Part shown: positions 2,229-24,410 of the stretch, piece after piece | Numbering within the stretch: the first letter of the stretch is position 1 | Layout of the letters: each line of letters begins with the position of its first letter | IMG/VR virus record: IMGVR_UViG_3300032326_001587 | Coordinates: 1-26,052 of that record | Source: a virus | Length of the DNA stretch: 26,052 nucleotides | Strand: one strand, 5' to 3' | Made by a program: the position numbers and the translations under genes | Notes under the pieces: generated by a model | The model's database searches: none | What the model was told of the DNA's origin: nothing | What the model saw: the letters and a program-made list of their open reading frames with translations, nothing else

Positions 2229-2720
2229 TCAGGTCATCTCGTAGATGCCGCTGGACCGAGGGTCGCGGGGGCCGTCACGGTACACGACCTGGACGCCGAC
2301 GCGCTCGAGGTACTCGACCCCCGCGCTGCCGCCCGCGTACCCGCCCCTCACGACGACGACGCACACCACGCCGGCGTGGTGCATCAGCTTCGCGCACATC
2401 GGGCACGGTTCCCCCGTGACGATCATCCACGACCCGTGCGTGGGCACCCCGTTCGCCGCCGCGTTCGCGATGACGTTCGACTCGGCGTGGTGGCACCCGA
2501 GTTCCATCATCGTGCCCGACTTGACCCCGTCACGCTCGCACCACGTCCCGCGGCACAGGGAACCTTCCTGTCCGCGCGGGCCGCCGTTGTACCCGTCGGC
2601 GAGGACGACGTTGCGCTCGGGGTCGACAAGTACCGCGCCGAACCTGCGGCGCGGGCAACCCGACGCCTCGGCGAGGATGAGGCACTGACGAATGCGGATG
2701 TCGAGGTGCTTGTCCTTCAT
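2229..2720 (-). CDS. Deoxycytidylate (dCMP) deaminase
   Basis: A 163-aa zinc-dependent deaminase that would convert dCMP to dUMP, feeding thymidylate synthesis during phage DNA replication. The family signature is complete: H78-A-E80, where H78 binds zinc and E80 shuttles the proton, and P105-C-P-M-C109, giving the two Cys ligands. A G-Y-N-G motif near residue 45 is typical of dCMP deaminases, as is the inserted Cys/His-rich stretch around residues 56-78. The frame runs further upstream, but the ATG at 2720 is chosen. It has a GGAGG ribosome binding site, and the 4-bp ATGA overlap with the RNA ligase gene implies translational coupling. It is the last gene of an operon whose other members look like RNA-repair enzymes. 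Substrate preference (dCMP rather than cytidine) follows from the family and was not tested. Confidence 0.93.
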   Translation of the reverse strand: MKDKHLDIRIRQCLILAEASGCPRRRFGAVLVDPERNVVLADGYNGGPRGQEGSLCRGTWCERDGVKSGTMMELGCHHAESNVIANAAANGVPTHGSWMIVTGEPCPMCAKLMHHAGVVCVVVVRGGYAGGSAGVEYLERVGVQVVYRDGPRDPRSSGIYEMT

Positions 2721-3457
2721 CGGCGACCCTCCATGAAACGCTGTGCCACCCGTGCCGCCGAGGCGTACCGACGGATGTTCTTCACCGCCCGCTGCATCGG
2801 GTGGATGCCGCCCTGCAGTGCCTCGTCCGTGATGCGCTGCTGGAACTCGAGGTTGATGAACTTCCCGAACACGCCCGTGCGGTAGTTCTTCAGCACGATG
2901 CCCTCGGCCTTCGACGCCCCGCTGAACGACGAGATGCGGTCGGCGAGCGCGGGGAGGTTCGTGGGGGACACCTTGCCCTGCCACACGAGGGGGACGACGG
3001 GTGCCCCGACCATCTCGCACACCGTCTCCTTCTCGGATCGGTCGAGCCAGGGCATCCGCGCCCCCGTCCCGACGCGGTACGGGGGCTCGAACTCCCCGTC
3101 GAGCACGTCGTACACCACGGTCATGTCGGGCCAGCCCTCGAACGAGTACGGCACGTTCTCGTAGGACACCGAGTGCTGGATCGTGAGCTGCTCGCAGAAG
3201 AACGTGTAGCCCCCGTGGAGGATGATGACCGGGTGGCCGTCCACCTTCTCCTCGACGACCAGCGGGGAACCGTCGAACAGCCGGTCCATGGTCGCATCGT
3301 CCATGTAGGGCTTGCCCTTGATGCGGGCACCCGCGCGGTCGATGGCGTCGTTGCCGACCACGACCGACTCGACGCCACCCTTCCCGACGACGCGGGCGAT
3401 GGGGATGCGTCGGATGCCGGACAGGTCCTTGTAGCCGGCGTTGTCGATGACCTTCAT
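2717..3457 (-). CDS. RNA ligase, nucleotidyltransferase superfamily
   Basis: A 246-aa ATP-type RNA ligase. The covalent nucleotidyltransferase motifs appear in order. Motif I is EEKVDGHP, with K71 the predicted AMP-accepting lysine. Motif III is YDVLDGEF (about 116-123), motif IV is EGIVLK (185-190), and motif V is GKFINLEF (198-205). The protein is shorter than T4 Rnl1 or Rnl2, so little beyond the catalytic module is present, except a basic C-terminal tail (residues 225-246) that could bind RNA. The ATG at 3457 has an AGGAG site. The gene overlaps both neighbours by ATGA, so it is coupled to the 2H/ART fusion upstream and the dCMP deaminase downstream. It would seal 3'-OH/5'-phosphate RNA ends, possibly host tRNAs or rRNA cut by defence nucleases. 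DNA ligation is less likely because no OB-fold or DNA-binding accessory domain is visible. Confidence 0.88.
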   Translation of the reverse strand: MKVIDNAGYKDLSGIRRIPIARVVGKGGVESVVVGNDAIDRAGARIKGKPYMDDATMDRLFDGSPLVVEEKVDGHPVIILHGGYTFFCEQLTIQHSVSYENVPYSFEGWPDMTVVYDVLDGEFEPPYRVGTGARMPWLDRSEKETVCEMVGAPVVPLVWQGKVSPTNLPALADRISSFSGASKAEGIVLKNYRTGVFGKFINLEFQQRITDEALQGGIHPMQRAVKNIRRYASAARVAQRFMEGRR

Positions 3458-5553: not shown

Positions 5554-6327
5554 ATGGCCCGCACCATCATCATCGGCGACGTCCACGGGATGCGCCAGGA
5601 ACTCGAGGACCTCCTCGCCCGCGCCGACGTCGCCCGCGACGACCACGTCGTCAGCGTCGGCGACCTCATGGACAAGGGTCCGGACTGCGCGGGCGCGGTG
5701 CGCGTCCTGCGCGAACTCCGCGAGGCGGGCATCCGCGTCACCCTCGTGCGAGGCAACCACGAGGAACGCCACGAGCGGTTCCGCCGCAACGAGGCGGAGG
5801 CCGCCCGCACGGGTCGCCCGAACCCCATGGCGCGGCTCGAGGAACTGCACGCCGCCGCCGACGGACTGACGGACGCCGACATCGCCTTCCTCGAGACGGC
5901 GGTCCCGGTCGCCCACCTCCCCGAACACGGCGCGGTGGTCATCCACGCGGGCATCCTCCCGACCCACGCGGCGCTGCCCTCCAGCACGGAGGGCCTGTCG
6001 GGGCGCGAGCGGAAGTCCCTCGAACTGGTCTACCGCGTGCGGTACGTCAACCCCGAGGGGAAGATGGTCGTCATGGGCGCGGAGACGGACGCCGACCGCT
6101 ACTGGGCCGACGTCTACGACGGTCGCTTCGGGCACGCCTACTTCGGGCACCAGCCGTTCCACGACCGCTCGGAGCCCGTCGAGTTCCCCCACGCCACGGG
6201 CCTGGACCTCGGCGCGGTGTACGGGAACGTCCTCGCCGCCGCCGTCCTCGTCGGGACGGAGCGGGCGCGGTTCGTCACCGTCCCCGCCCACGGTCGGTTC
6301 GCCGAGCCCCACAACGACGCCGAGTAG
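5554..6327 (+). CDS. Calcineurin-like (PPP family) metallophosphatase
   Basis: A 257-aa two-metal phosphoesterase. All PPP motifs are present in order: GDVHG (D9, H11), GDLMDKGPD (D37, D40), RGNHE (N68, H69), IHAG (H131) and YFGHQPF (H199), followed by GLDLGAVYG, typical of the C-terminal core of this family. Relatives include phage lambda protein phosphatase, ApaH-like enzymes and the central phosphatase domain of bacterial Pnkp, which removes 2'/3' phosphates from RNA ends. The substrate cannot be read from sequence. It lies divergent from an RNA ligase operon, so RNA 3'-end healing is a reasonable hypothesis, with protein dephosphorylation the main alternative. The ATG at 5554 has a GGAG site. 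A strong hairpin ends the unit. Confidence 0.92.
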   Translation: MARTIIIGDVHGMRQELEDLLARADVARDDHVVSVGDLMDKGPDCAGAVRVLRELREAGIRVTLVRGNHEERHERFRRNEAEAARTGRPNPMARLEELHAAADGLTDADIAFLETAVPVAHLPEHGAVVIHAGILPTHAALPSSTEGLSGRERKSLELVYRVRYVNPEGKMVVMGAETDADRYWADVYDGRFGHAYFGHQPFHDRSEPVEFPHATGLDLGAVYGNVLAAAVLVGTERARFVTVPAHGRFAEPHNDAE

Positions 6328-11248: not shown

Positions 11249-14200
11249 TTACCGGGCCGCCAAACTGGAACGGAGGTTGAACGTGACCACAATGTAGAGG
11301 AGGGGGAACACGGGCTGGATGTAAGCCTCCACCTCCGCAGTCGTGGGATCGTCGGACGACACGTTGGCCGAGACGCCGGTGTAGGCGGCGAGGATCTGCG
11401 CGTCGACGAGGCCACGGAGGGTTGCGGTGAGCTGACCCTCGATCTGCGAGAGGATGCCGGGGAGGAACTTCGTACCGATGTACCGCTCGAGGGTGGTGCG
11501 GGACTGACGCTGGGTCTCGTCGACGATCTGGATGATCGTCGGGAGCTTGGTCAGGATGGTGGACATGTCCGTCGTGAGGCCCTGGCGGACGCGGAGGACG
11601 GGGTTGCGGTCCTCGAGGACGGTGACGCCCTTGACGGCGACCTGGTTCTGCTCGACGGCGTCCAGGGTGCGCGCGAGGCGGGTGGCACCGACGAGACGCT
11701 TCCCGGTCCACGGGGTTGCGACGTCCGTGTTCGTGGACACGACCGAGCCGGCGAGCATGGCCGCCATGTACGTCCCGTCCACCACCGTCTGCTCGTCGGG
11801 GGCACCGCCGGGCTGCGGGATGGGGACGATCATCACGTCGGGGTACACGAGGCGGAACCGGGTGCGGCCGATGGCCGAGGCCCAGTTGCCCGCCGTGGTG
11901 AGGCTGGTGCCCGACCCGAAGCCGCACAGGGCGGTACGCTCGGCGCGGTGGCGGATGTCCGACTGGATGTCGCAGTGGCGGGAGAGGTACTGGAACAGGT
12001 CGAGGCTGTCACCCTTGAGCGGGATCATGATGTCCGGCAGCGTGCCGCCGGGCAGCGCGCCCTCGAGGTCGTCGATGGCGTTGCGGAACGCGGCGGTGGA
12101 CGCCTTGGTGCCGTTGTCCTCGTCCTTCTGGACCTGCTTGATGCCGACCAGGACCGCGCCGTTGAGGATGGCGAGGTACGACGCGAGGGTCACGGGGTTG
12201 TCGGTCGAGAGCGCGCCGTAGGTCGCCTCGATGGCCGAGAACTTCGTGAACAACTGCGTCTGGTAGTCCTGCTTCCGGTACTGGTACGAGACGTAGTACA
12301 GGTCGCCGACCGCGGGCTCCTCGCCGGAGCGCGCCATCGTGTCCACCGTCGCCGAGTCGCCGACCGTCACGTTGATGGTGTTGGTCACCAGCAGTTCGAC
12401 GCCGGGGATGGCGTTGGTCGGGAGGTTGGAGTCGGTGACGGCGGCCTTCCGCACCCTGAAGGTGAAGTACTCCGTCGCCGGGTACAGGCTGCCGCCCGTG
12501 CGGGGGAGCACGGTGAACGTGAGGCCCGTGACGAGGTCGCGGTACGTCTGCCCGACCACGCCGTCCTGGCCCACGCCGCCGTTGAACACCGAGGTGTTCG
12601 CGGAGCCGGAGCCGTTCGGGTCGGTCGAGGTGACGTAGAACCCGGACACGCCCGCCTCGCCCACGGCACCGTCACCCGACACGGCACCGAGGCCCGTGCC
12701 CTGGCGCAGTGCGTCGTTGGACGATGCGTTGCGGAGGGCGACGGACGACGAGGTGCCGAGGCCGGAGTTGGCCTGCGACTGGACGGTGAGGTACTTCGCG
12801 CCGCCGGCGTCCGTCGTGACGAAGGCGAGGGCCTCCGCCGCGAAGTAGGTCGCCGAGGGGCTGTCCCACGACAGGATGGACGTGGCGACGGTGGACGCCG
12901 CGTGGCCCATGAGGGCGGACGCGAGGTTCTGCGCCGACGGGAGGACGCGCGACGCGACGTCGCCCGCCGAGAACCCGAGGACGTCGTTCGCGCTGCCGTC
13001 GCCGATGGACACCGCCGAGGACGCCGTGTCGAGGAGGCTGACGATGCGGAACGCCGCACCCTCCTGGATGCAGCGGCTCGACACGGAGCCGAGACCGGCG
13101 GCCGTCATGGCCGCGCGGATCTGCCCGATGACGGAGTTCGCGCTGCCGCCGGGGCCGACCGGGACGTCGGCGGAGCCACCCGACGGGATGGTCGTGCCCG
13201 TGTCGTCCGTGAAGACCACGGTGACGGGGACGCCGTCGACCGTGAACTTGAACACGTTGTTCTGGTCGTTGGTGCCGCCCGCCGCGTAGAAGGTGACGAC
13301 CGGCTGGCCGTCGGCGTTCGCCACCACACCGGCGGAGTACTGACCGCTCGACCACCCGACGTACCCGGCGATGGACGCGGGGAGGACCGACGCGCGCTGC
13401 GCGGCGGGGACGGTGGTGTTCGGGGTGAGGCCGACGTTCTCCGACCCGTTGCCGCCCAGGAACGTGATGCCGAGGCCCGTGCCGAGGGACAGCGGGTGCA
13501 GCGTGCCGAAGCCGGGGACGACGCGGTTGCGGAGGATGATGCGGTCGTGGGACAGGGCACCCGTGTTGTCACCCGCGATGGTGTACCGACGGGCGATGGG
13601 GCCGTCCAGGACCTTCGTCTGGGACGCGCCCACGGCACCCGTGTCGATGCCCGCCACGATGGCGAGGTCACGGGCGGGGGTGCCGCCCGTGACGAACTCG
13701 AGGTAACCGGCGTTGTCGCCGACGGCCTTCGTGAGCGAGAACACCATGCGGCCGCTCGAGTCGGCGGTCACGGCGACCGTGAGGCCCGCGAACCCGCCGC
13801 CGAGGGTGCCGATCTGACCCGCCACCTGGCTGTCGATCTCGGCGGCGAGGGCGGCAGCGTTGGAGTAGGTACCCGGGGTCAGCGTCGCCGTGAGCGTGCC
13901 CGAGGCACCCGAGATGTCGCCCGTGTAGTGGAACGACAGGCGGTCGTACTCACCCACGTTGACGATGAACGCGCCGAGGAACCGACCCGCCGACGTGAGC
14001 TTCGCCGCGAAGGACGAGGCCGCCAGGTTGATGGCCGTGACGTAGTCGTTGAGGGTCGAACCCGAACCCGACGCCGCCGTCGCAGCGATGACCACGCCGT
14101 CCACCGTGAAGTTCAGGGTGTCGTTCGTGGCGTCGATGTCGTAGGTCGTCCCGCCCGACGAGGGGAGGTACTCGACCTCGGACCCGACCATCGCCGCCGT

Positions 14201-16222
14201 GAACCCGAGGTTCGGGGCCGCGGCGTCGGGGCACGGGGTCGTCAGGTCGATGCCCGCCGCACCGTTGGCGAGGGCCGCACCGTCCACCAGGAGGCGGAGC
14301 TTGTCGGACGCGGCGTTGACCGTCAAGTAGTCGCCCGCGAACGGGAACGTGTAGACGGCGGGGGTGGAGTCGGTCGCCGCGAAGGTGACCGACACGTCCT
14401 CCTCGACGGGGGCCGAGTAGGACGACGTGACGAACGGCGTCTCGAACCGCGCGTCGGGCTTGCGCTCCGAGCCGGAGGGGAAGTTGACCGTGACCGTGGC
14501 GAGGCCCGAGGACTTCAGCCCGAAGGTCGGGGTGTAGAGGTACGACCCGTTCTCGTTCTGGACGGTGTACGCACCGGTGCCCGACTGCCCCGCCGTGGTG
14601 ACGACGAGCGAGTAGACCTGGTCCTGGATGGTGTTGTAGTAGAAGGTCGCGTAGACCGTCGCGCCGGCGGGGACGGGGTCCTTCAGCGTGACGGTGTTCG
14701 TCGCGCTGTCCACCTTGAGGACGGTGACGCGACCGCGGTCGAGCGCGTCCTGCGGGCCGTAGCCCCAGTAAGCGAACACGAGGTCGGGGCGGTCGGTCGG
14801 GAGGTCGATGCGCCCGTTGCTGACCGTCTGGAACAGGGAGGAGCCGAGCGGGCTGCCGCGGCCGTTGCCCGTCGTCGGGGTGAGCGGGAGGACGAACTTC
14901 GTGCGGGACTCGACCGCCGGGTTCGCCGTCGTGTCCACGGAAGCGGAGCACGGCTCGAGGTAGGTGCGGGTGTCGACCAGCGTCGCCGTCACCTGGGACG
15001 AGTTGAAGAACTCGGAACCGGTGGTGTGCGTGCCGGACTCGACGATGACCGCCGTGCCCCACACGATCTTGTCGTCCTGCAGGGAGAAGTCGACCCCGTC
15101 GGTGTAGTCGAACCGACCCGGGGCGATGCCGCACTGGGTGATGTCCAGCACGTCGACGTGCGCGAGGTAGTCGAACGTGTCCTGCCAGGTGTTGAAGTAG
15201 TACTGAACCGTGACCGTGGAACCCGGCGCGGGGGCGAACCCGAGGGTGACCGCGCGGCTCGAGCCGTCGACGGACACGGGGATGACCTGCACGCCGTCGA
15301 CCTTCACGGTCACGTCCGCCGGGTCGGTCGTCGTGACGCCGCCGTTGGACCCGTCCACGATGGGGCCGTTGAACGTGTAGAAGGTACGGGTGCGCGCCGT
15401 GTCGGTGCCCGCGACGAACCCGAGGGTCGCGTTCGCGTTGCCGTTGCCGACGACGATGCCACGGTCGGCGACGAGCTTGACGCTCGTGCCACCGTAGTTG
15501 TTGACGAAGGTCGACGCCACGAGGCTCGTGGTGCTGGCCTGCGCGTTCACGAACGCCGCGATCTGGCCCGCCGACCACGGCGTCGCACCGGAGTCGGGCA
15601 GGGTGATCGTCACCGAGGCACCGTCCACCGTGAGGGACAGCGTGTCGTTGTCGCCCGTCGAGATCTCGAAGGTCTCGCTGCCGAGGCCGTAGACGGTCGC
15701 GGACTCGACGGTGACCTGGGAGGACAGGTCGTCGGTGACGAGCGTGTCCGTGCGCTTGAAGAAGTAGGTGATGCGGACGTTGTCGCCGGCGTCGGGGCCG
15801 TAGGCGAGCTCGACGATGCCGTTGGCACCGTCGAGGTAGGTGACGACCACGGGCTCCCCATTCACCGTGACCGACACGCTCGACGCCTTCGTAGCCGTTG
15901 TCCCCGTGCCGTTGCCGTTGACGATGGGGTAGTGCCGGACCTGGACGCGGCGACGCTCGCCGTCGAACGCGCCGAGGGTCACCGCACCGGACTGGCTGAC
16001 CGAGACGACCGCGCGGTTCGCCAGGTCCTCGAGCACGATCCGCTGGTCGACCGTCGAGGAGGAACCGCGCACGACCTCGAGGTCGCTCTGGACGAGGATC
16101 TCGGAACCGGTGCCGATGAGGACCGGGATGCGGAGTCCAGCCAGGACGCCCTGGACGGGGCTCTCGAACAGGGTGCGCGTGTAGACGCCCGGCGGAGCGT
16201 AGATCGAACCAGGGAAGGCCAT
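11249..16222 (-). CDS. Giant tail sheath protein with internal beta-domain insertions
   Basis: A 1657-aa protein, while phage sheaths are usually about 400-700 aa. The N-terminus (YAPPGVYTRTLFESP) matches the PGVY start of sheath proteins. The last 340 residues or so look like a sheath core and C-terminal domain: LFTKFSAIEATYGALSTDN, a run with RFRLVYPDVMIVP, ARTLDAVEQNQVAVKGV, and a helical end with RYIGTKFLPGILSQIEGQL and LLYIVVTFNLRSSLAAR. Between lies a very long Gly/Thr/Ser/Val-rich region with recurring units of two kinds. One is V-T-V-K-V-D-G...V-T-V-x-Y-(Y/F)-F (about 112-158, 300-350, 495-540). The other is (L/F)xFTVDGxxVxxT (about 190, 700, 990). The insertions should decorate the outside of the tail. 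The ATG at 16222 has an AAGAGG site and promoter motif site 7, with a strong hairpin after the stop. Confidence 0.88.
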   Translation of the reverse strand: MAFPGSIYAPPGVYTRTLFESPVQGVLAGLRIPVLIGTGSEILVQSDLEVVRGSSSTVDQRIVLEDLANRAVVSVSQSGAVTLGAFDGERRRVQVRHYPIVNGNGTGTTATKASSVSVTVNGEPVVVTYLDGANGIVELAYGPDAGDNVRITYFFKRTDTLVTDDLSSQVTVESATVYGLGSETFEISTGDNDTLSLTVDGASVTITLPDSGATPWSAGQIAAFVNAQASTTSLVASTFVNNYGGTSVKLVADRGIVVGNGNANATLGFVAGTDTARTRTFYTFNGPIVDGSNGGVTTTDPADVTVKVDGVQVIPVSVDGSSRAVTLGFAPAPGSTVTVQYYFNTWQDTFDYLAHVDVLDITQCGIAPGRFDYTDGVDFSLQDDKIVWGTAVIVESGTHTTGSEFFNSSQVTATLVDTRTYLEPCSASVDTTANPAVESRTKFVLPLTPTTGNGRGSPLGSSLFQTVSNGRIDLPTDRPDLVFAYWGYGPQDALDRGRVTVLKVDSATNTVTLKDPVPAGATVYATFYYNTIQDQVYSLVVTTAGQSGTGAYTVQNENGSYLYTPTFGLKSSGLATVTVNFPSGSERKPDARFETPFVTSSYSAPVEEDVSVTFAATDSTPAVYTFPFAGDYLTVNAASDKLRLLVDGAALANGAAGIDLTTPCPDAAAPNLGFTAAMVGSEVEYLPSSGGTTYDIDATNDTLNFTVDGVVIAATAASGSGSTLNDYVTAINLAASSFAAKLTSAGRFLGAFIVNVGEYDRLSFHYTGDISGASGTLTATLTPGTYSNAAALAAEIDSQVAGQIGTLGGGFAGLTVAVTADSSGRMVFSLTKAVGDNAGYLEFVTGGTPARDLAIVAGIDTGAVGASQTKVLDGPIARRYTIAGDNTGALSHDRIILRNRVVPGFGTLHPLSLGTGLGITFLGGNGSENVGLTPNTTVPAAQRASVLPASIAGYVGWSSGQYSAGVVANADGQPVVTFYAAGGTNDQNNVFKFTVDGVPVTVVFTDDTGTTIPSGGSADVPVGPGGSANSVIGQIRAAMTAAGLGSVSSRCIQEGAAFRIVSLLDTASSAVSIGDGSANDVLGFSAGDVASRVLPSAQNLASALMGHAASTVATSILSWDSPSATYFAAEALAFVTTDAGGAKYLTVQSQANSGLGTSSSVALRNASSNDALRQGTGLGAVSGDGAVGEAGVSGFYVTSTDPNGSGSANTSVFNGGVGQDGVVGQTYRDLVTGLTFTVLPRTGGSLYPATEYFTFRVRKAAVTDSNLPTNAIPGVELLVTNTINVTVGDSATVDTMARSGEEPAVGDLYYVSYQYRKQDYQTQLFTKFSAIEATYGALSTDNPVTLASYLAILNGAVLVGIKQVQKDEDNGTKASTAAFRNAIDDLEGALPGGTLPDIMIPLKGDSLDLFQYLSRHCDIQSDIRHRAERTALCGFGSGTSLTTAGNWASAIGRTRFRLVYPDVMIVPIPQPGGAPDEQTVVDGTYMAAMLAGSVVSTNTDVATPWTGKRLVGATRLARTLDAVEQNQVAVKGVTVLEDRNPVLRVRQGLTTDMSTILTKLPTIIQIVDETQRQSRTTLERYIGTKFLPGILSQIEGQLTATLRGLVDAQILAAYTGVSANVSSDDPTTAEVEAYIQPVFPLLYIVVTFNLRSSLAAR

Positions 16223-16318: not shown

Positions 16319-16777
16319 TCATCCCCCGTCCTTCTTCTCCGCCTGGATGACCTTCTGCACCTCGGCCCCGATTGCACGCCCCGCCTCGGACGCGGCGCGC
16401 TCGGCGGGTTGCATCACGCGGTACGATCCGTCGGGGTTGCGGGAGAGGTCGTACCCGCTGGACCCGGGGTTCTCCGCGATGACCTGGCGCTTGCGGTCCA
16501 TCCGCTGACCGATGTGCTCCCACCGCTTGGCCGCGTCACGTCCGATGGTCTTGTCGTAGTTCCAGTCGTCCGACGTCCCCGTGCTCGGCGGGGCCATCCC
16601 CCGCGTCTGACTCGCGGGGTGGTTGAAGGTGAACGCCGCCGCCGTGACCTGCCGGGTGGCTTGTTCGCCACAATCCGTGCAGGACGTCGCGGGAAGTTCC
16701 TCTGCGGAGGATGCTCTGGGGAACAACTTGTCGAACCGAAGCCCGCATCCGTGGCACTGGAAAACGTAGATGGGCAA
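16319..16777 (-). CDS. FmdB-type zinc-ribbon protein
   Basis: A 152-aa protein. The N-terminal 45 residues are an FmdB-like zinc ribbon: MPIYVFQCHGCGLRFDKLFP (C8, C11) and CTDCGEQATRQV (C33, C36). The rest is a charged helical tail without a recognised domain (WEHIGQRMDRKRQVIAENPG, ending AEVQKVIQAEKKDGG). Zinc-ribbon proteins of this sort occur in phages in structural and regulatory contexts, and the role here is unknown. The start is TTG at 16777, as no ATG or GTG fits the ribbon. A GGAG site lies inside the last codons of the upstream GIY-YIG gene, only 3 nt of sequence separating the two genes. Translation therefore depends on sequence now shared with the endonuclease gene. Confidence 0.85.
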   Translation of the reverse strand: MPIYVFQCHGCGLRFDKLFPRASSAEELPATSCTDCGEQATRQVTAAAFTFNHPASQTRGMAPPSTGTSDDWNYDKTIGRDAAKRWEHIGQRMDRKRQVIAENPGSSGYDLSRNPDGSYRVMQPAERAASEAGRAIGAEVQKVIQAEKKDGG

Positions 16778-16780
16778 AGT

Positions 16781-17407
16781 TCACTCCACCTTATCGACAC
16801 GACGAAAGGTCCAACCAGACCTTACCCGGTGAGTGTGCCCCAGCAAGACGTTCCGCACGCTTTCCCGGCTTATGCCGAGACCCCTGGCTGCGGCTGCGGG
16901 ATGACTGAAGCGCAGTACCTGTCCGTTCAGGTGTTCAGCCATAATCTCATGGTCGTACTTCCTCAGTCTCGACTCGACAATCTTGTCCGTCCAGGTGTTC
17001 TCGCCACCTTTGTTCCACGACGGTCGACCCTTGTTCGCCGCACTTATGAGCGTCCGAGCCTCTTGTGTCTGTTTCTTGCCCAACATCCCATAACGACCCG
17101 CACCCCGACCAGCCACAAGGGCGATGTTGTATAAAGAACCCTGGTCGTAAGAATCAATTCGAGCCTGTTCCCGCGCATATTGTTCCGTGAGGACACAAAC
17201 TTCGACCAGGTCGAGCGAGAAAGCCGCTTCCCCATACTTCAGCCACGCACGTTGAAGGTGCCGATTCGGGTGCTTGCCAGAACGAAGCTGTATGCGGTGG
17301 TTCGTAAGTCGTCGGTGGACATCCTCAGACGAACCCACATACACCCGCCCGCTTACCGCGCAGCGAATCTCATACACACCACATGTGGCGATGGATTTAG
17401 TCGGCAT
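16781..17407 (-). CDS. GIY-YIG homing endonuclease
   Basis: A 208-aa protein from ATG 17407; an in-frame ATG at 17425 is the alternative, but an AGG precedes only 17407. The N-terminal nuclease shows GVYEI, then RVYVGSSEDVHRRLTNH, then KYGEAAFSLDLVEVC, which matches the GIY, YIG, Arg and later Glu elements of phage Seg/I-TevI enzymes. A NUMOD-like segment (NKGRPSWNKGGENTW) and a C-terminal DNA-binding helix region (HPAAAARGLGISRESVRNVL, resembling intron-encoded nuclease repeat motifs) follow. The coding sequence is visibly less GC-rich than its neighbours and uses more A/T at third positions, so it is probably a recent arrival. It sits between a divergent promoter region and the zinc-ribbon gene, directly upstream of that gene's TTG start. 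Confidence 0.92.
   Translation of the reverse strand: MPTKSIATCGVYEIRCAVSGRVYVGSSEDVHRRLTNHRIQLRSGKHPNRHLQRAWLKYGEAAFSLDLVEVCVLTEQYAREQARIDSYDQGSLYNIALVAGRGAGRYGMLGKKQTQEARTLISAANKGRPSWNKGGENTWTDKIVESRLRKYDHEIMAEHLNGQVLRFSHPAAAARGLGISRESVRNVLLGHTHRVRSGWTFRRVDKVE
16808..16833 (+). promoter_or_regulatory. Plus-strand promoter-like motif inside the GIY-YIG gene (possibly a relic)
   Basis: GGTCCAAC, 12 nt, GGTGAG: box one is exact, spacing exact, box two matches four of six. It lies antisense within the 3' end of the GIY-YIG gene and has no plus-strand gene directly after it. Chance or the boundary of an insertion are both possible. Confidence 0.35.
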
Positions 17408-17422
17408 CGACCTATCGCGGGG

Positions 17423-17438
17423 CATAGGGTGTTCATCG
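17423..17438 (-). promoter_or_regulatory. Candidate minus-strand promoter motif for the GIY-YIG/zinc-ribbon genes (weak)
   Basis: On the minus strand this reads CGAT-GAACACCC-TATG, with the correct 8-nt gap and a mismatch in the first box. If used, transcription would begin very near the ATG at 17407 and downstream of the one at 17425. Confidence 0.38.
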
Positions 17439-17786: not shown

Positions 17787-18389
17787 ATGCTCGTCGTAGC
17801 CTTCGACCCAAACCGTGACCCCATCGGTCAGGTCATCGCCTGCGCGCCCTGCGTGGCGAACATGACGGTCGGCAAGGCCGCCGTCCTGACCCCCGCCGGT
17901 GAGGTCATCGAGGTCCTGGGGCACCACATCGGCGTCTACGCCGTCCCCGACGGCATCACCTACGCGGAGTGGGAGCCGCACCAGTTCGCGTACCGCGTCC
18001 TGTGCGCGGCAGGTCTGCAGGTCGGACACCCCGCCGACTACTGGCGTGCCCTCGCCACGAGCGGGATGCCGCCCGTGCGGCTGTGGGCCACCGCCCGCAT
18101 GGTCGAGTACACGGGTCGGTCGAACTTCTGGATGTCGCTCCGCGACCAGATCCTGAAGTGGCTGTCCACCCCGCCGGCGCAGCGGCAGTTCAGCACCCCC
18201 CTGTCGAAGCGGCAGTGGGAGGCCGCCCTGAACGACCCGAGTCACCTGTCGAAGGGCAAGCAGTTGTCCGACGACATCGCCGCGGGGAAGGACCTGACGA
18301 CCCTGACGGACGCCATGATGGGTCCGTTAGGAGATGCCCTCGTAGGTGCCGCCGGGGCCGACGAAGAACGGGTCCTCAACGGCGCGTAG
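17787..18389 (+). CDS. Unrecognised 200-aa protein
   Basis: ATG 17787 has an AGGAG site and promoter motif E. The protein appears globular, with beta-rich segments near the N-terminus (LVVAFDPNRDPIGQVIACAP and KAAVLTPAGEVIEVLGHHIG) and a helical C-terminal half with WMSLRDQILKWL and an Ala/Gly-rich end. Two close cysteines (C19 and C22 in ACAPC) could bind a metal. I do not recognise the family. Its last 63 nt overlap the convergent virion gene on the other strand, which is unusual even for a compact phage genome. Confidence 0.72.
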   Translation: MLVVAFDPNRDPIGQVIACAPCVANMTVGKAAVLTPAGEVIEVLGHHIGVYAVPDGITYAEWEPHQFAYRVLCAAGLQVGHPADYWRALATSGMPPVRLWATARMVEYTGRSNFWMSLRDQILKWLSTPPAQRQFSTPLSKRQWEAALNDPSHLSKGKQLSDDIAAGKDLTTLTDAMMGPLGDALVGAAGADEERVLNGA

Positions 18390-19556
18390 CCCGAGGTCCG
18401 CGAGGACGCGGATGGACGTCGCCGCGTTTCCGAGCGCGGCGAGTTCCTCGTCGGACAAGGCTGCCGTCGTCTTGATCTGAGCGTCCGTCTGCGGGAGGGC
18501 ACGGCGGATGGTCGCGGCGAGGGGGACGTGGATGGACCAGTCCGCCTGGAGCTGCACGCTGATGGAGGCGTTGTAGTAGTAGTCGTCGGCGTTCTCGTCG
18601 TACGCCTCCTCCGACTCGCCGCCCATGCCGACAGTGGAGATCTCGATGCCCTCCGTCGAGAGGCGGCTGCGGGCGATGCCCCACAGGTACATGACCGTCA
18701 AGTCGACGATCTCCTGTTGGGCGTACACGTCGCGGGCGACCACGTCGAAGTCGAGGCTGAGGTCCCACCGACCGCCGTACTCGAGGGCCGTCGGGCCGCG
18801 ACGCGCGGTGACCACGACCGCCATCTTGTCGCCCGCCTGGACCCGGCGACCGAACGCGAGGACGGTGCCGGGGATGGCCGTGTGGTTCGCCTGCATCTGC
18901 ACGATGGGGTGCGGGCCGGTCGTCGGGGCGACGTACCGATAGTCCGCGGACAGGGAGCCGTTGCGCGGCAGCGGCTCCGTCAGTGTCACGGTGCCGTTGG
19001 CCGGGTCGAGGGTGTAGTTGGTCCCCTCGAGGAGTTGGATCGCGCCCGGCATCTCGTACAGGCGCATCGACCCCGCGAGGACGGGGTTCTGCGTCTGGTA
19101 CGTCAGGTCGTTCACCTTCACGAGCGTCTCGTCGTTCACGTCGATGAGGGGATCGACGTAGAACTGGAAGGTGTCTTCCTTGTTGTACGGGGGGATGGGC
19201 GACGGGGTCTTCTCGACCTCGATGTAGTAGATGCCGGGGGAGGTCGGGAACGACCCCCCGTTGCGCCGGATGGCGAGCTCGTCCTCCCGCACCCACTCGA
19301 TGGACAAACCGGGGGAGTCCCCGACCCGCGCGAGCATGACGTGGGACTGGACGGTGCCGACGTAGTTGTCGGCGGACAGAGCCACCTGGTTCGCCGACGA
19401 CGTCTTCAGGATGATGGCGTACTGTGGCCGCTCACGGAACGAGTACTTGCCCTGGATGTGGTCGACCAGGTCGGGGTACTGCGGCTGCACCGACCAGAAG
19501 TCCCGAAGGGTCTGGATCATCCGCCGCTTCACCTGTTCCGTCATGCGGAAGTACAT
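18327..19556 (-). CDS. Virion structural protein, neck/tail-terminator region (putative)
   Basis: A 409-aa protein and the last gene of the virion operon. It is beta-rich with repeated NGTVTLTEPLPRNGSLSADYRY-like strands (split near 190-215). The C-terminal part (about 265-360) has DLTVMYLWGIARSRL, a GMGGESEEAY acidic stretch, and YYYNASISVQLQADW, a pattern I associate with neck or tail-joining proteins of myoviruses, although I cannot name a family. ATG 19556 has a distant GAGG; ATG 19544 is an alternative start. The position directly after a small acidic gene and the actin homologue, and upstream of the sheath on the same strand, supports a virion role. Confidence 0.7.
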   Translation of the reverse strand: MYFRMTEQVKRRMIQTLRDFWSVQPQYPDLVDHIQGKYSFRERPQYAIILKTSSANQVALSADNYVGTVQSHVMLARVGDSPGLSIEWVREDELAIRRNGGSFPTSPGIYYIEVEKTPSPIPPYNKEDTFQFYVDPLIDVNDETLVKVNDLTYQTQNPVLAGSMRLYEMPGAIQLLEGTNYTLDPANGTVTLTEPLPRNGSLSADYRYVAPTTGPHPIVQMQANHTAIPGTVLAFGRRVQAGDKMAVVVTARRGPTALEYGGRWDLSLDFDVVARDVYAQQEIVDLTVMYLWGIARSRLSTEGIEISTVGMGGESEEAYDENADDYYYNASISVQLQADWSIHVPLAATIRRALPQTDAQIKTTAALSDEELAALGNAATSIRVLADLGLRAVEDPFFVGPGGTYEGIS

Positions 19557-19560
19557 TGGG

Positions 19561-19839
19561 TCAGGCCTCGTGTGCGGTCGGTTGAACCGCCTTGTGTTCG
19601 ATCGCGCGGTCGATCACCCGACGGAGCTCGATGAGGTCGTTGATGGACGCCGCACCGAGTCGGTCTACGATGTCGTGCTCCGTCAGGATGATGGAGCACT
19701 CGCGCGGCATCGCCTCCAGGACGGCGTCGCGGATGTTCTCGGCGTCCTCGACGTCGGTGTTGGGGCCGAGGCGCACCCACAGGACGTCGCCCGGCTGCAT
19801 CCGGACGATCTGGGCCATGACCGTGTCGCGTAGGCTCAC
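19561..19839 (-). CDS. Small acidic protein in virion operon
   Basis: A 92-aa protein starting at GTG 19839, with AGGAG five nt upstream and a GTGA overlap with the stop of the actin-like gene. This pairing implies that it is translated together with the actin homologue. It has a beta strand (DVLWVRLGPN) followed by helices (EDAENIRDAVLEAMP, INDLIELRRVIDRAI). No family is recognised. It could be a partner of the actin-like protein or a small virion component. Confidence 0.7.
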   Translation of the reverse strand: MSLRDTVMAQIVRMQPGDVLWVRLGPNTDVEDAENIRDAVLEAMPRECSIILTEHDIVDRLGAASINDLIELRRVIDRAIEHKAVQPTAHEA

Positions 19840-20849
19840 TCGTACTCCTGGATGGCCTGGAGCAGGAGGCCCTGCGCGATGGCACCGAGGGGGTCCTTCG
19901 CGTGGCGGACCTCGGACACCTCGAACGGGAGCTTCTTGCGGCGGGTCTCGAGAACCTGCTGGAAGAACTCCGTGAACCCGCCGGCCATGCTCGTGCCGCC
20001 CGCGATGACGATGGGGATGGGGCGGGGCACGGCGAACTGGCCGCGGACGCGGGCGAACTGCGCCGTGATGTTGTCGAGGGTGTACTCGATCAGGCTCTTG
20101 TAGTAGACCGCGAGGGCCTCCTGCTCACGACCCACAGGGGCCGTGAGGTCGAGGCCGCCCTCCTTCAGGGAGCACATGCGGGCCTGCGTCGAACCCACGG
20201 CCTTCGCCGCACCCGCGTCGATCCAGTCGCCGCCGCGGGCGACGGAGAACGACATCCCCTCGATGGTGTTCACGGCCAGGGCGACGTTCGACATGCCGGA
20301 CCCGAACGAGATGCCGACGCCGCTGAAGCCGTCTTTGGCCGTCTCGTTGAACACGACCGCCATCGCCTCGTTCGACGGGACGGCGCGGAACCCGCACTCC
20401 GTCACGATGCGACCGAGGACGCCCTGGTGGTAGATGATGTCGCGGTCGGGCGCGTCCACGGGGGCGGCGGGAACCGAGTAGTAGCAAGCCTCGTTCGGCT
20501 CGGCGGGTTCGCCGAGCACCTGACGGATGAGGAGGCCGAGCACCTCGAGGGCGTCGAGCTCGCCGGCGGCGAGGAGGCCCTGCGACAGGGGGCGGCGGGC
20601 CTCCTTGCCGAACACGTTGGCGATCTCGAGGGCCTTGTCGCCGACGATGAGGAGTTCGCCGCCGCGCTCGAAGAAGTCCACGCCCGACAGCTTCAACATC
20701 CGCTTCGCCGAGGGGTCGAGGTCCAGGAAGGCGTCGCGGACGCGGCGCGTCTCGACGCCCTTCTCACTACGGCGAGCGGAGACGATGTTCATTGTCCCGA
20801 TGTCGACGGAAACTCCGCGGAACTGGGTGGGGGCAGCGGTCTTACTCAT
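19836..20849 (-). CDS. Bacterial-actin homologue (ParM/MreB/HSP70-type ATPase fold)
   Basis: A 337-aa protein with the actin-superfamily nucleotide motifs in order: phosphate-1 VSVDIGTMNIV (13-23), connect-1 NEAMAVVF (160-167), phosphate-2 GISFGSGMSNVALAV (179-193) and adenosine motif VIAGGTSMAGGF (281-292). The length is typical of prokaryotic actins. Phosphate-1 contains Asp16, and the connect-1 region holds Glu161, consistent with ATP hydrolysis. Known phage actins of ParM type segregate plasmid-prophages, and others organise replication. This one lies in the middle of virion genes and is coupled to a small acidic protein by GTGA. It could move or anchor capsids or DNA, or act in assembly; this is inference. 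ATG 20849 has a GGAG site 18 nt after the previous stop. Confidence 0.88.
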   Translation of the reverse strand: MSKTAAPTQFRGVSVDIGTMNIVSARRSEKGVETRRVRDAFLDLDPSAKRMLKLSGVDFFERGGELLIVGDKALEIANVFGKEARRPLSQGLLAAGELDALEVLGLLIRQVLGEPAEPNEACYYSVPAAPVDAPDRDIIYHQGVLGRIVTECGFRAVPSNEAMAVVFNETAKDGFSGVGISFGSGMSNVALAVNTIEGMSFSVARGGDWIDAGAAKAVGSTQARMCSLKEGGLDLTAPVGREQEALAVYYKSLIEYTLDNITAQFARVRGQFAVPRPIPIVIAGGTSMAGGFTEFFQQVLETRRKKLPFEVSEVRHAKDPLGAIAQGLLLQAIQEYE

Positions 20850-20867
20850 GTGCGATGACTCCGAGGG

Positions 20868-21470
20868 TCAGGTAGTGGACTTGCGCTTGCGGGTGGCCTT
20901 CAGGGCCGCTGCCGCCTCGTCGAGGTCGGCACCCCCCGACGAGGTCTGCGCGACCGTGATGGTCGTCGCGTCGCCGGTGGGGACGATGTTGCTGGGGATG
21001 TAGACCGGGGCATCGGACGAAACGACGGGCGCGGCCGTGCCGATGACCACGGTCGGGGACGAACCGCGACCGCCGGGAACCAGGGCACCCGACAGGATCA
21101 GTCCCTCGATGGCCTTCGTGACCCCGCGCGCGATGGCCGCCTCGATGGCTCCCGCATCGACGTTTGCCTGCGGGGGAGCCTGGTCGGGCCTCTCCGGTGT
21201 GGGTTGAGGTTCGGACGACAGGGTGCGCGCGATGAACCCCGACCGCTGTGCGCGGTTCAAGCGTACATTCGGTGGAGAGGGGGAACGACTCACGGAACAC
21301 CTCCGGGCGTACACTACCGACACCGCACCGGAACGCACGGCGAGCAAGAGCTCCTCGGACGACCGTGCGGCCTCCTCGGACACCCACACCGACTCCCCCC
21401 GACGGAACCGGATGCCCATGTCGGTGATGTGGTACTCGGGGCACAGGCACTCGATACGGGCTTCCTTCAC
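20868..21470 (-). CDS. Virion-operon protein of unknown function
   Basis: A 200-aa protein starting at GTG 21470, which overlaps the previous stop by GTGA. The N-terminal 60 residues form a compact domain (IECLCPEYHITDMGIRF then WVSEEAARSSEELLLAVRSG). The middle is Pro/Gln-rich linker, and a helical stretch (IEAAIARGVTKAIEGLILSGA) is followed by a Ser/Thr/Val-rich strand and a basic end (KATRKRKSTT). No family is recognised. Its place in the operon suggests a virion or assembly protein. Confidence 0.72.
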   Translation of the reverse strand: MKEARIECLCPEYHITDMGIRFRRGESVWVSEEAARSSEELLLAVRSGAVSVVYARRCSVSRSPSPPNVRLNRAQRSGFIARTLSSEPQPTPERPDQAPPQANVDAGAIEAAIARGVTKAIEGLILSGALVPGGRGSSPTVVIGTAAPVVSSDAPVYIPSNIVPTGDATTITVAQTSSGGADLDEAAAALKATRKRKSTT

Positions 21471-22033
21471 TTCTTCACCAGTTCCGCGATGTGGTTGAGG
21501 GCGGCGTTCCCGAGTGCATCGGCGGCAACGTCGGCGATCCGTGCCCGTGCCCGCTTGGCGGCGACTTCCAGGAACTTGTGCTTCAGGAAGCCGGGGTGGA
21601 CCCAGGGCCGGTCCCCGGGTCCCGGGGTAGCGCGCAGGACCACCGTACCGTCGGCACGCTCGACGGGGACGACGGGAACCCCGGCGGCGCGGGTCACCCA
21701 CGTCATGGGGTACGGATCGCGGCCCTCGGTGAGGGCCTTGATGAACGGGTATGTGCAGATCACCTCGACCGTCTTCCTGCCGCGGACCCGCGTCTTGAAC
21801 GAGTTGAAGAACGACTCGGTGTTCGGCAGGGTGAGGGGTTGTCCGCTGCCCTTCGTCCGGGGGGTGGCTTCTTCGCGTGCGGCGCGTTGGACCTCCTCCT
21901 GGAGGATGACCGCCATCCGTCGCACGATCTCCTGGGTGGCCTCTTCCCCGACGTCTCGCGCCCACGCACCGATGTACGAACCACGGACGCGGAACTGAGT
22001 GACCTGTTCTGGTTTGGTAGGCTTGAACCTCAC
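21467..22033 (-). CDS. HK97 gp10-like tail-completion/neck protein (putative)
   Basis: A 188-aa protein starting at GTG 22033, overlapping the previous stop by GTGA. An N-terminal helical half (EEATQEIVRRMAVILQEEVQ) is followed by SGQPLTLPNTESFFNSFKT and EVICTYPFIKALTEGRDP, then WVHPGFLKHKFLEVAAKRA. The sequence order of helix, TLP/S-rich turn, Y-containing strand and final P-G-F helix recalls HK97 gp10-like head-tail joining proteins. The resemblance is by pattern and not certain. Position between the repeat protein and other virion genes is consistent with a neck or tail-completion role. Confidence 0.7.
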   Translation of the reverse strand: MRFKPTKPEQVTQFRVRGSYIGAWARDVGEEATQEIVRRMAVILQEEVQRAAREEATPRTKGSGQPLTLPNTESFFNSFKTRVRGRKTVEVICTYPFIKALTEGRDPYPMTWVTRAAGVPVVPVERADGTVVLRATPGPGDRPWVHPGFLKHKFLEVAAKRARARIADVAADALGNAALNHIAELVKK

Positions 22034-24156
22034 GACCCACCGCCCTTGCCGCCGTACGTTGTGTTCGCCCACACCGGGGTGCGGCCGCGGATCTCACGCC
22101 CGTCGGGGATCTTCGGAACCTCGGAGCCCATCGGGGACGCCTGGTAGTCGAACCCGACCGGGTACGGGTCGGCCTCGACGCAGGCCGACTTCTCGGGGTT
22201 CGTGTACCGGGTCTCGGGCCACGGCAGGTCGTCCGTGCCGGTCACGGGGATGCGGTACCGGATGTCCTGCTCGTCGAGGTACTGGATGTTGAAGTGCTGC
22301 TGGAGCGGCAGCCCCCGGACGGAGGGCCGACGCACCGCGCCGATGCTGTACCGCTCCCCCGTCTGCTTCACGATGAAGTCCCGCTGCGTGACGGACGGGT
22401 TCTCCGTCGTCCACACCTCGTACCCGTGCTCGAGGCGGCGTCCGTTCGGGGTCTGCGTGACCCGCCGCTCCGCGTCGTCTGGGGCGACGATGATGTCCGT
22501 CGGCCCGTCGTACCCGCCGACGTACCCGGTGCCGAAGCACGTCGGGCACCGCGCCGACGGCTGCTGCCCGTACTCGCGGGTCTCAGGGTCGATGTAGCAG
22601 GGACACGGGAGGCCCGACACCTTGCGCTTGAACAGCTTGACCCGCTCCCCGCCCTGCTCGAGGATCCACAGGTTGCGCCGCTTCGCCTCACGCCAGATCC
22701 AGTCGACCGTCTCGACCTCGGCCAGGCCGACGGGCGGGCAGTACCCGAGCGGAGTCTCGACGAGGCCCGACGGGGACGTTCCCGTCGGGTCGATGGCGAC
22801 CGTCGTCAGGCGGTAGAACACCTGGTTCGTGCGGTCGAGGTCGGTGGGGATGAGGTTCGCGTTGTACCGGTAGGTCACCGTGACGGCGGAGTACTCGGAC
22901 GGCAGCACGGGCGGAACCCACCGCTCGCGGGCAAGGTCCCACGACGGCTGGTTGATGAGGGTCACGTCCCCGGTCGGGCCGAACACCGCCTGCACGGGCA
23001 CGACGACCCCGTTGATCTTCAGGGTGACGTCGGCGGGGGCGTTCGCCGCGACCGCCTGGCCGTAGGCCTTGACGACGGGGGTGAACTTGGCGCGGAAGAT
23101 CCAGTCGGCGTTGTTGGGGTCGGTTCCCCTGGACAGCCAGTCCCCGTCCCACCGGACGACCTCCTCCTCGATGAGGGTGTTGTCCACGTGGTCGCGGTAC
23201 GCCAACGACCCGATGGGGACGCGGTTCACTCGGACGTACGGGCCGCGCTGTCCGTTGTCCGAGCGGTAGATGTTCACCCCGACGATGGTCCATGCCGTGT
23301 TGTTCACGCCCTGGCACGCCGTGCTCCCCGACCCACCCGACAGGCGGTCGTCGGACAGCACGAGCACGTCGGGGTCGTCGGTCGCGATGGACACGGCGTT
23401 GCCGTCCGCCCCCACGGGGACGGCCGTCAGGGTGACCTTCCCGTACAGGGACGTCGCCGTGGCGAGGCTCGACCACCCGTTCGACGGGTCGTTGATGGCG
23501 GCGGCGAGGGAGTCGGCCACGTCGAAGGTGTTGCCGTCCGCCGAGAAGTCCTGACCCCCAGGGGTGCGGGGGCCAAACACGGCGGTGAGGGTGCGGACGC
23601 CGCCCACCGTGATGGTGGTGGGGTCGGAGCCGCCCGTCAGCTCCGTGCCCGACGGGACGATGCCGCCAGTCGTAGACCCGAGGGTGATGTAGTTGCCCTC
23701 GAACCCCGGCGTCCCTGCGGTGACCGTGACGACGTTCCCCAACGCCGACGCGACGACGAACCCGTCGAGGGAGTTCGCCGCGTCGTTGATGGCGTTGCCC
23801 AGGTCGGCGGCGACGGCGTTCGCCGTGGGGAGGGAACAGTCGAAGTCGTCGTGACCCGGCGTGCGGGGTCCGGCGACGGCGGTGAACGGCACGGACGCGA
23901 CGATGACCACATCCCCCGGCGAGATGACCCCCGACAGCGTCAGCGTCCCCGTCGCGGTGGAGAGGACGGACGGCATGGCGGACACCACGACGGTCGCCGT
24001 CGCCTGGACGAGGGCAACGGCGTCGCCGGTCATGATGGTCGAGGGGTCGTCCCACCGAAGGTCGACGTACCCCACGCGGAACGCGGAGAACACCTGGAGG
24101 TTCCTCGGCGGCCACGGGAACGACCCCGGCAGGGTGTCCCAACCGGCGGTACTCAC
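22030..24156 (-). CDS. Virion protein with tandem ~100-aa repeats and a zinc-binding C-terminal region
   Basis: A 708-aa protein from GTG 24156, which overlaps the previous stop (GTGA). Two tandem repeats of about 100 aa are seen near residues 77-176 and 177-275. Each contains (T)AV(A/F)GPRTPG...DF, then a helix ending AINDxxN, a (K/N)VTxTA strand and a terminal LxGGS. The middle is fibronectin-like. The C-terminal third has CPCY (about 515) and CPTCFGTGY (about 534), four cysteines likely to bind zinc, then TQRDFIVKQTGERY and LPLQQHFNIQYL. The last phrase recalls neck/connector proteins in large myophages. It is probably a neck, collar or baseplate component. A GTG start without a strong Shine-Dalgarno site suggests coupling to the upstream gene. 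Confidence 0.78.
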   Translation of the reverse strand: MSTAGWDTLPGSFPWPPRNLQVFSAFRVGYVDLRWDDPSTIMTGDAVALVQATATVVVSAMPSVLSTATGTLTLSGVISPGDVVIVASVPFTAVAGPRTPGHDDFDCSLPTANAVAADLGNAINDAANSLDGFVVASALGNVVTVTAGTPGFEGNYITLGSTTGGIVPSGTELTGGSDPTTITVGGVRTLTAVFGPRTPGGQDFSADGNTFDVADSLAAAINDPSNGWSSLATATSLYGKVTLTAVPVGADGNAVSIATDDPDVLVLSDDRLSGGSGSTACQGVNNTAWTIVGVNIYRSDNGQRGPYVRVNRVPIGSLAYRDHVDNTLIEEEVVRWDGDWLSRGTDPNNADWIFRAKFTPVVKAYGQAVAANAPADVTLKINGVVVPVQAVFGPTGDVTLINQPSWDLARERWVPPVLPSEYSAVTVTYRYNANLIPTDLDRTNQVFYRLTTVAIDPTGTSPSGLVETPLGYCPPVGLAEVETVDWIWREAKRRNLWILEQGGERVKLFKRKVSGLPCPCYIDPETREYGQQPSARCPTCFGTGYVGGYDGPTDIIVAPDDAERRVTQTPNGRRLEHGYEVWTTENPSVTQRDFIVKQTGERYSIGAVRRPSVRGLPLQQHFNIQYLDEQDIRYRIPVTGTDDLPWPETRYTNPEKSACVEADPYPVGFDYQASPMGSEVPKIPDGREIRGRTPVWANTTYGGKGGGS

Positions 24157-24410
24157 GAACCCACCGTGCGGACGGTTCCGTCGCGGTCGACTGCCCACCC
24201 GGTGTCTGCGGGGATGTTGAGCCGGGTCGCGATGGTCTCGAGGACGCGGGTGGACTCGACCTCGATGGCGCTCACGGACGCGACGAGGCGGTGACGCTCG
24301 ACCTCGAGCTCCCCGATGCGGCGCAGGGTGGCGTCCATGCGGGCCTGCACATCCTCGAGTGCCCGCACCTCGGACACGGTCAGGTCACCGATGACTCGGG
24401 TGTCGGTCAC
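24153..24410 (-). CDS. Small coiled-coil protein, first gene of the virion operon
   Basis: An 85-aa protein from GTG 24410 (VTDTRVIGDLTVSEVRALED), with AGGAGG just upstream. The earlier frame, which would start at 24482 and run through the promoter region, is rejected. Residues about 18-65 form a heptad-like coiled coil (LEDVQARMDATLRRIGELEV, then further Ile/Val-spaced helix). The transcript leader would be only about 25 nt. The function is unknown; possibly a scaffold or assembly factor. Confidence 0.75.
   Translation of the reverse strand: MTDTRVIGDLTVSEVRALEDVQARMDATLRRIGELEVERHRLVASVSAIEVESTRVLETIATRLNIPADTGWAVDRDGTVRTVGS

Follow-up and report, generated by a model that had tools for sequence, protein, structure and literature searches.

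The window, by which we mean the whole stretch of DNA analysed (26,052 nucleotides), is a 26-kb IMG/VR fragment with a neck/tail virion module on its minus strand, and an actin gene lies inside this module. All features of the window described below are on the minus strand unless marked otherwise. In the direction of transcription, the module encodes a 722-aa protein, a 201-aa protein, an adaptor, the actin, a 92-aa open reading frame (ORF), a tail terminator, a Zn-ribbon protein, and a giant sheath protein. The 201-aa and adaptor genes overlap at a GTGA, 18 bases separate the adaptor and actin genes, and the actin gene in turn overlaps the 92-aa ORF at a GTGA, the coupling noted in the first-pass annotation. 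A scan for sigma-70 promoters returned matches at chance level only.

We examined the genes around the actin for indications of their function. The giant protein of 1657 aa (11249..16222) is firmly assigned to the tail sheath by its match to phrog_2839 (1.2e-27), and a sheath was detected in 20 of 25 related records. The sheath domain makes up the C-terminal quarter of the protein. Long open frames occur in most relatives (about 1400-1900 aa, one of 2509 aa), and thus the giant sheath is a trait of the lineage; the sheath frame of one contig (L066; G019:C1:29566-30615) has one in-frame TAG, reflecting either recoding or error. The 409-aa protein (18327..19556) is predicted to have a tail terminator fold, as its AlphaFold2 model (pLDDT 83.6) resembles the neck of phage 812 (Z 13.9) and lambda gpU (Z 12.2, rmsd 3.0 over 125 aa). 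The model also has an additional beta domain, inserted at about 138-209. Assignments are weaker for the two proteins encoded at the start of the module. The 722-aa virion structural protein (22030..24198) is placed by synteny and weak matches to phrog_1004 and phrog_2806 (best 4e-6), whereas the 201-aa protein (21467..22072) is a probable Neck1 or tail completion protein, based on synteny and on one of 28 family members matching phrog_5 (“tail completion or Neck1”) at 3.4e-6. A sequence search of solved structures gave no match for the 722-aa and 409-aa proteins. A Zn-ribbon protein of 152 aa (16319..16777) in the virion block was recognized by PF09723 (1.4e-9) and synteny. Between the terminator and Zn-ribbon genes is a gene for a GIY-YIG/NUMOD3 homing endonuclease (16781-17425), and homing endonuclease-like genes occupy the matching site in L005, L006, L043, and L063. 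Elsewhere in the window, genes for an RNA-ligase-like protein (2717-3457) and a metallophosphatase (5554-6327, plus strand) are perhaps an RNA-repair set.

The actin gene (19836..20849) starts with ATG, has a GC3 of 0.93, and encodes 337 aa. Its product matches the Volactin family (PF25216) with an E-value of 8e-75 (252.7 bits; Pfam cut-off 35), and the match extends over residues 14-332 and over positions 4-321 of the 321 in the profile, i.e., the whole domain. No other Pfam model, including those of ParM type, matched at E-values up to 1. An AlphaFold2 model built from 74 homologues is confident (pLDDT 93.8, pTM 0.90). When compared with VIA-align, the best match is the MamK filament (Z 28.0, rmsd 3.0 over 295 residues), followed by BeeR (Z 26.7) and MreB (Z about 26), all of them filament-forming actins. 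Given this profile match, this model, and the virion genes on either side, the earlier claim of an actin homologue inside the neck/tail operon holds far beyond chance. It had also been placed apart from segregation genes, and profile searches of the window recognized no partition genes beside it. An HSP70-like substrate-binding domain, which the first-pass annotation named as evidence against an actin, was looked for and not found in the 337-aa protein, which has an actin fold to its C-terminus and no HSP70 Pfam match at E-values up to 1. In BFVD, the matches are limited to remote HSP70/actin folds and to entries with no name.

Kinship had been left open among ParM, MreB, and HSP70, and phylogeny places the protein in the volactin family, away from MreB and MamK. 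With these two as the outgroup, the volactin family splits off with support of 99/99, and the viral clade (lineage A) falls inside it with support of 100/99. The 337-aa protein is a complete volactin-family actin, and not a ParM, MreB, MamK, or HSP70. It shares the actin fold with MamK and MreB (Z 25-28) and has a MamK profile match of 6.8e-10, but it matches neither Pfam MreB_Mbl nor, at E-values up to 0.1, the NCBIfam MamK model (cut-off 400 bits). Relatives from Omnitrophota and Magnetococcales also match Volactin and not MamK; an identification of these proteins as Mad28 was considered and dropped. In Omnitrophota genomes (L085-L097), volactin-family genes occur in tandem pairs, and in L088 genes for a ParA-like ATPase and a coiled-coil protein are located just upstream. 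The name “bacterial actin” given at first was right as to the actin and loose as to the label, as the family is named from haloarchaea and has both archaeal and bacterial members. Volactin itself (VolA, HVO_2015, from Haloferax volcanii) belongs over its full length to the same Pfam family and forms dynamic filaments in vivo (PMC10869688). It is a cellular protein acting on host shape (PMC10869688), whereas the viral clade is separate and has its own operon and adaptor.

The first-pass annotation stated that all actin motifs are present, which is correct for all but one of them. The phosphate-1 loop (residues 14-21, 20787..20810) carries the motif D16-x-G-T-x-N, E161 (20367..20369) occupies the position of the catalytic Glu and aligns with a Glu of MamK, and the adenosine loop (residues 282-287, 19989..20006) includes G284, G285, and T286 in the homologue alignment. 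In the phosphate-2 loop (residues 179-188, 20286..20315), the alignment and comparison with MamK reveal Ser181 where an Asp is usual (S181-F-G-S-G here versus D-I-G-A-G in MamK), a departure from the actin-superfamily catalytic pattern. Invariant in all 82 first-collected viral homologues are D16, G18, T19, N21, E161, S181, G183, G185, and N188, as well as G207, D208, D211, G284, and G285. Because the Ser is present throughout the viral relatives (82/82 in this first set and 79/79 lineage-B proteins) and in nearly all cellular ones, it is a trait of the family. The DxGTMN phosphate-1 motif and the Ser-containing GISFGxG phosphate-2 motif of the viral actin are also those of its haloarchaeal relatives. 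The replacement may alter ATP turnover. The actin is under strong purifying selection, with dN/dS values of 0.06-0.08 against two close relatives that are, with those of the tail terminator (0.06-0.15), the lowest of the block. One actin gene (L233:7637-9763, plus strand) is interrupted in frame by a large insertion whose ends look intein-like (GR/CLAGD...MIVHN/CGDWID, junctions marked by slashes), directly before the invariant GDWID motif.

We then evaluated the distribution of the actin. A search of 50,697 phage records returned only two matches, both from uncultured huge phages: one of 485 kb with 64% identity, the other of 595 kb with 32% identity. In IMG/VR, the pattern of three phage actins recovered 255 loci, of which 80 were kept, on contigs of up to 485 kb; a record found later reaches 619 kb. 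The order of the block is largely kept in dozens of contigs of up to about 620 kb. Among 59 actin loci with enough sequence, the 722-aa gene is found upstream in 55 and the 201-aa gene in 47. The terminator is no more than 3 kb from the actin at 49 of 70 loci, and at about 20 actin loci the terminator/sheath part is not downstream of the actin. To avoid selecting on actin, we also searched by terminator family, and 37 of the 45 loci with 9 kb of upstream sequence encode the actin. The eight actin-less records, searched in full (up to 536 kb; contigs, some of them perhaps incomplete), contain no volactin anywhere. Since 8 of 45 relatives live without it, the actin is dispensable in the lineage. 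Terminase PF03237 was not found in lineage A. A contig in an Actinomycetota MAG bin (L084) is phage sequence within the bin and carries the same block with a 97% identical actin, a possible hint of the host only, and L017 and L019 are two volactin-family genes on one 297-kb contig.

Upstream of the actin is the gene for the adaptor (200 aa, 20868..21470), whose GTG start overlaps the stop of the preceding gene. An ORF at 20842-21450, considered as the upstream gene, is in the wrong frame. The adaptor consists of a small N-terminal domain, a low-complexity linker, and a conserved C-terminal tail, the FIP tail (49 aa, 20871..21017; SDAPVYIPSNIV...DLDEAAAALKATRKRKSTT), which is basic at its end. 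A protein with this FIPxxIV...ALKALRKK tail is encoded upstream of the actin at 73 of 73 testable loci, and at 58 of them it overlaps the actin or sits within 50 bases of it. In the terminator-chosen set, the tail is present in 54/54 cases with actin and in 0/9 without it (Fisher 4e-11, overstated because of kinship). On the terminator tree, the tail and the actin each change seven times. The independent pairs number four on supported branches, all of them in step (sign test, p 0.125), and seven on all branches. Four actin-less phages retain the adaptor body without the FIP-tail block. As the tail model derives from actin-bearing loci, we also read the C-termini of these four adaptors directly and searched all three frames behind their bodies, and no FIP tail was found. 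The tail was likewise not found in lineage B. The co-occurrence of tail and actin is the strongest functional clue, and the adaptor is the conserved partner of the actin. That part had first been given to the 92-aa ORF (19561..19839), with no mention of the adaptor. This accessory protein is acidic, as described, if mildly (17 D+E, 10 K+R), but it is sporadic among relatives and was rejected as a conserved partner: tblastn found homologues only in the window, L084, L004, L005, and L006, to which a profile added L028 and L030.

A second lineage (lineage B), of which the 595-kb phage is a member, comprises at least 108 IMG/VR loci encoding another volactin-family actin, and the same neighbours recur in most of 80 loci. 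In the 595-kb phage the actin region includes baseplate wedge and tail genes, with a terminase about 12 kb away. The two genes preceding the actin of lineage B (595-kb phage; L003:16475-19752) encode, judged by eye, putative glycan-related enzymes. Placing lineages A and B in one clade was rejected (p-AU 0.017). Thus, two acquisitions are suggested, and the two lineages may have obtained their volactin-family actins separately; the evidence is moderate, with lineage B on a long branch. Profile comparison identified no convincing neighbours common to both lineages besides the actin.

Because it is set among neck/tail genes and the partner tail is present only with it, a probable role of the actin is to help build or place virus particles. 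We give roughly even chances to a mechanism in which this volactin actin ATPase forms filaments that are hooked by the adaptor and dock on neck/tail parts or particles for placing or assembly. The ATPase would be a product of the late virion operon, made together with neck and tail proteins, and, as its family and fold suggest, would form dynamic ATP-driven filaments like haloarchaeal volactin. The adaptor would have two parts, an N-terminal body that is part of the neck/tail gene set and in some cases persists in the absence of actin, and a C-terminal tail that would bind the actin. Via this tail, filaments would attach to intermediates of the neck and tail or to completed particles, and would place or move them during particle assembly. 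The position in the operon points to this cargo and timing. ParR couples ParM to DNA. With its body on the neck side and its tail on the actin side, the adaptor would be comparable to ParR with ParM and to AlpA, which links AlpC to DNA (PMC4446434). In prophage CGP3, AlpC and AlpA are a phage actin and a co-transcribed adaptor, as at the viral locus; however, binding of AlpA to phage DNA and early induction of alpAC (PMC4446434) set that system apart from the viral adaptor, which is in a neck operon.

A filament acting in capsid movement, packaging, or virion assembly, as envisaged in the first-pass annotation, is compatible with this evidence. Phage cytoskeletons known so far are chiefly PhuZ tubulins and DNA-positioning actins. 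PhuZ of phiKZ-like phages moves capsids (PMC9067925) and, like the viral actin, is a cytoskeletal NTPase encoded near virion genes; in phiKZ, the sheath gene is about 9.5 kb away. PhuZ has a tubulin fold, whereas the viral protein has an actin fold. No tubulin was detected in 25 records of the actin lineages, which are incomplete contigs, making the absence weak evidence; the same tubulin model found PhuZ of phiKZ (E-value 2.6e-8). We favour a particle-handling filament because of this lack of tubulin and the proximity of the PhuZ and sheath genes in phiKZ. Our broader proposal, that huge phages have an actin system in which volactin filaments would hold neck/tail components by a dedicated adaptor tail, for placing tails, joining heads and tails, or storing finished particles, as a counterpart of the PhuZ tubulin, from a family taken up separately by two lineages, is tentative and somewhat short of an even chance.

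The main rival is a non-polymerizing actin-fold ATPase that serves as a neck/tail assembly factor or chaperone and grips the tail peptide of the adaptor, as PilM grips PilN. The gene order, with actin between neck and tail genes, the strict tie to a single short peptide tail, and the altered phosphate-2 Asp are all consistent with such a role. We consider it unlikely, as the top fold matches are filament actins, the named member of the family polymerizes in vivo (PMC10869688), and cellular members share the Ser. DNA positioning or partition, with the late-operon location being incidental, has precedents in the actin AlpC and the tubulin PhuZ, which position phage DNA (PMC4446434, PMC4244570). 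The basic end of the adaptor tail would suit this function, and PhuZ of phiKZ, too, sits within 10 kb of a sheath gene. However, the adaptor body goes with neck genes even in actin-less phages and partition genes were not recognized nearby, so that a ParM-, AlpC-, or PhuZ-like role in DNA positioning seems quite improbable.

The location inside a virion operon and the strong purifying selection could also indicate a structural component of the virion, either a neck or an ejected protein. This is very doubtful, as 8 of 45 relatives have the same genes for neck and sheath but no actin, and the particle can therefore form in its absence. Host remodelling, with the actin controlling curvature or shape, would parallel Volactin, which influences cell shape (PMC10869688), and Mad28, which tracks curvature (PMC12713370); it leaves the position among neck genes and the link to the adaptor tail unexplained and strikes us as scarcely plausible.

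The actin fold, the volactin family, and phage actins are already known. No actin is reported in the huge- and jumbo-phage literature that we searched (PMC7162821, PMC12619734, PMC7824862), with subscription journals mostly outside its scope. As far as searched, the new findings are volactin-family actins in phages, the location of these actins in a huge-phage neck/tail operon and, in a second huge-phage lineage, in the virion region, and an adaptor tail gained and lost together with the actin. Here, we provide an annotation for hundreds of huge-phage contigs so far unannotated. An actin family of archaeal cell shape is a widespread gene of the huge-phage neck/tail module, and it recurs in a second huge-phage lineage. 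In lineage A, a named partner segment is gained and lost with the actin, which gives a direct and cheap test. If filaments form, actin-driven virion assembly in prokaryotic cells becomes testable.
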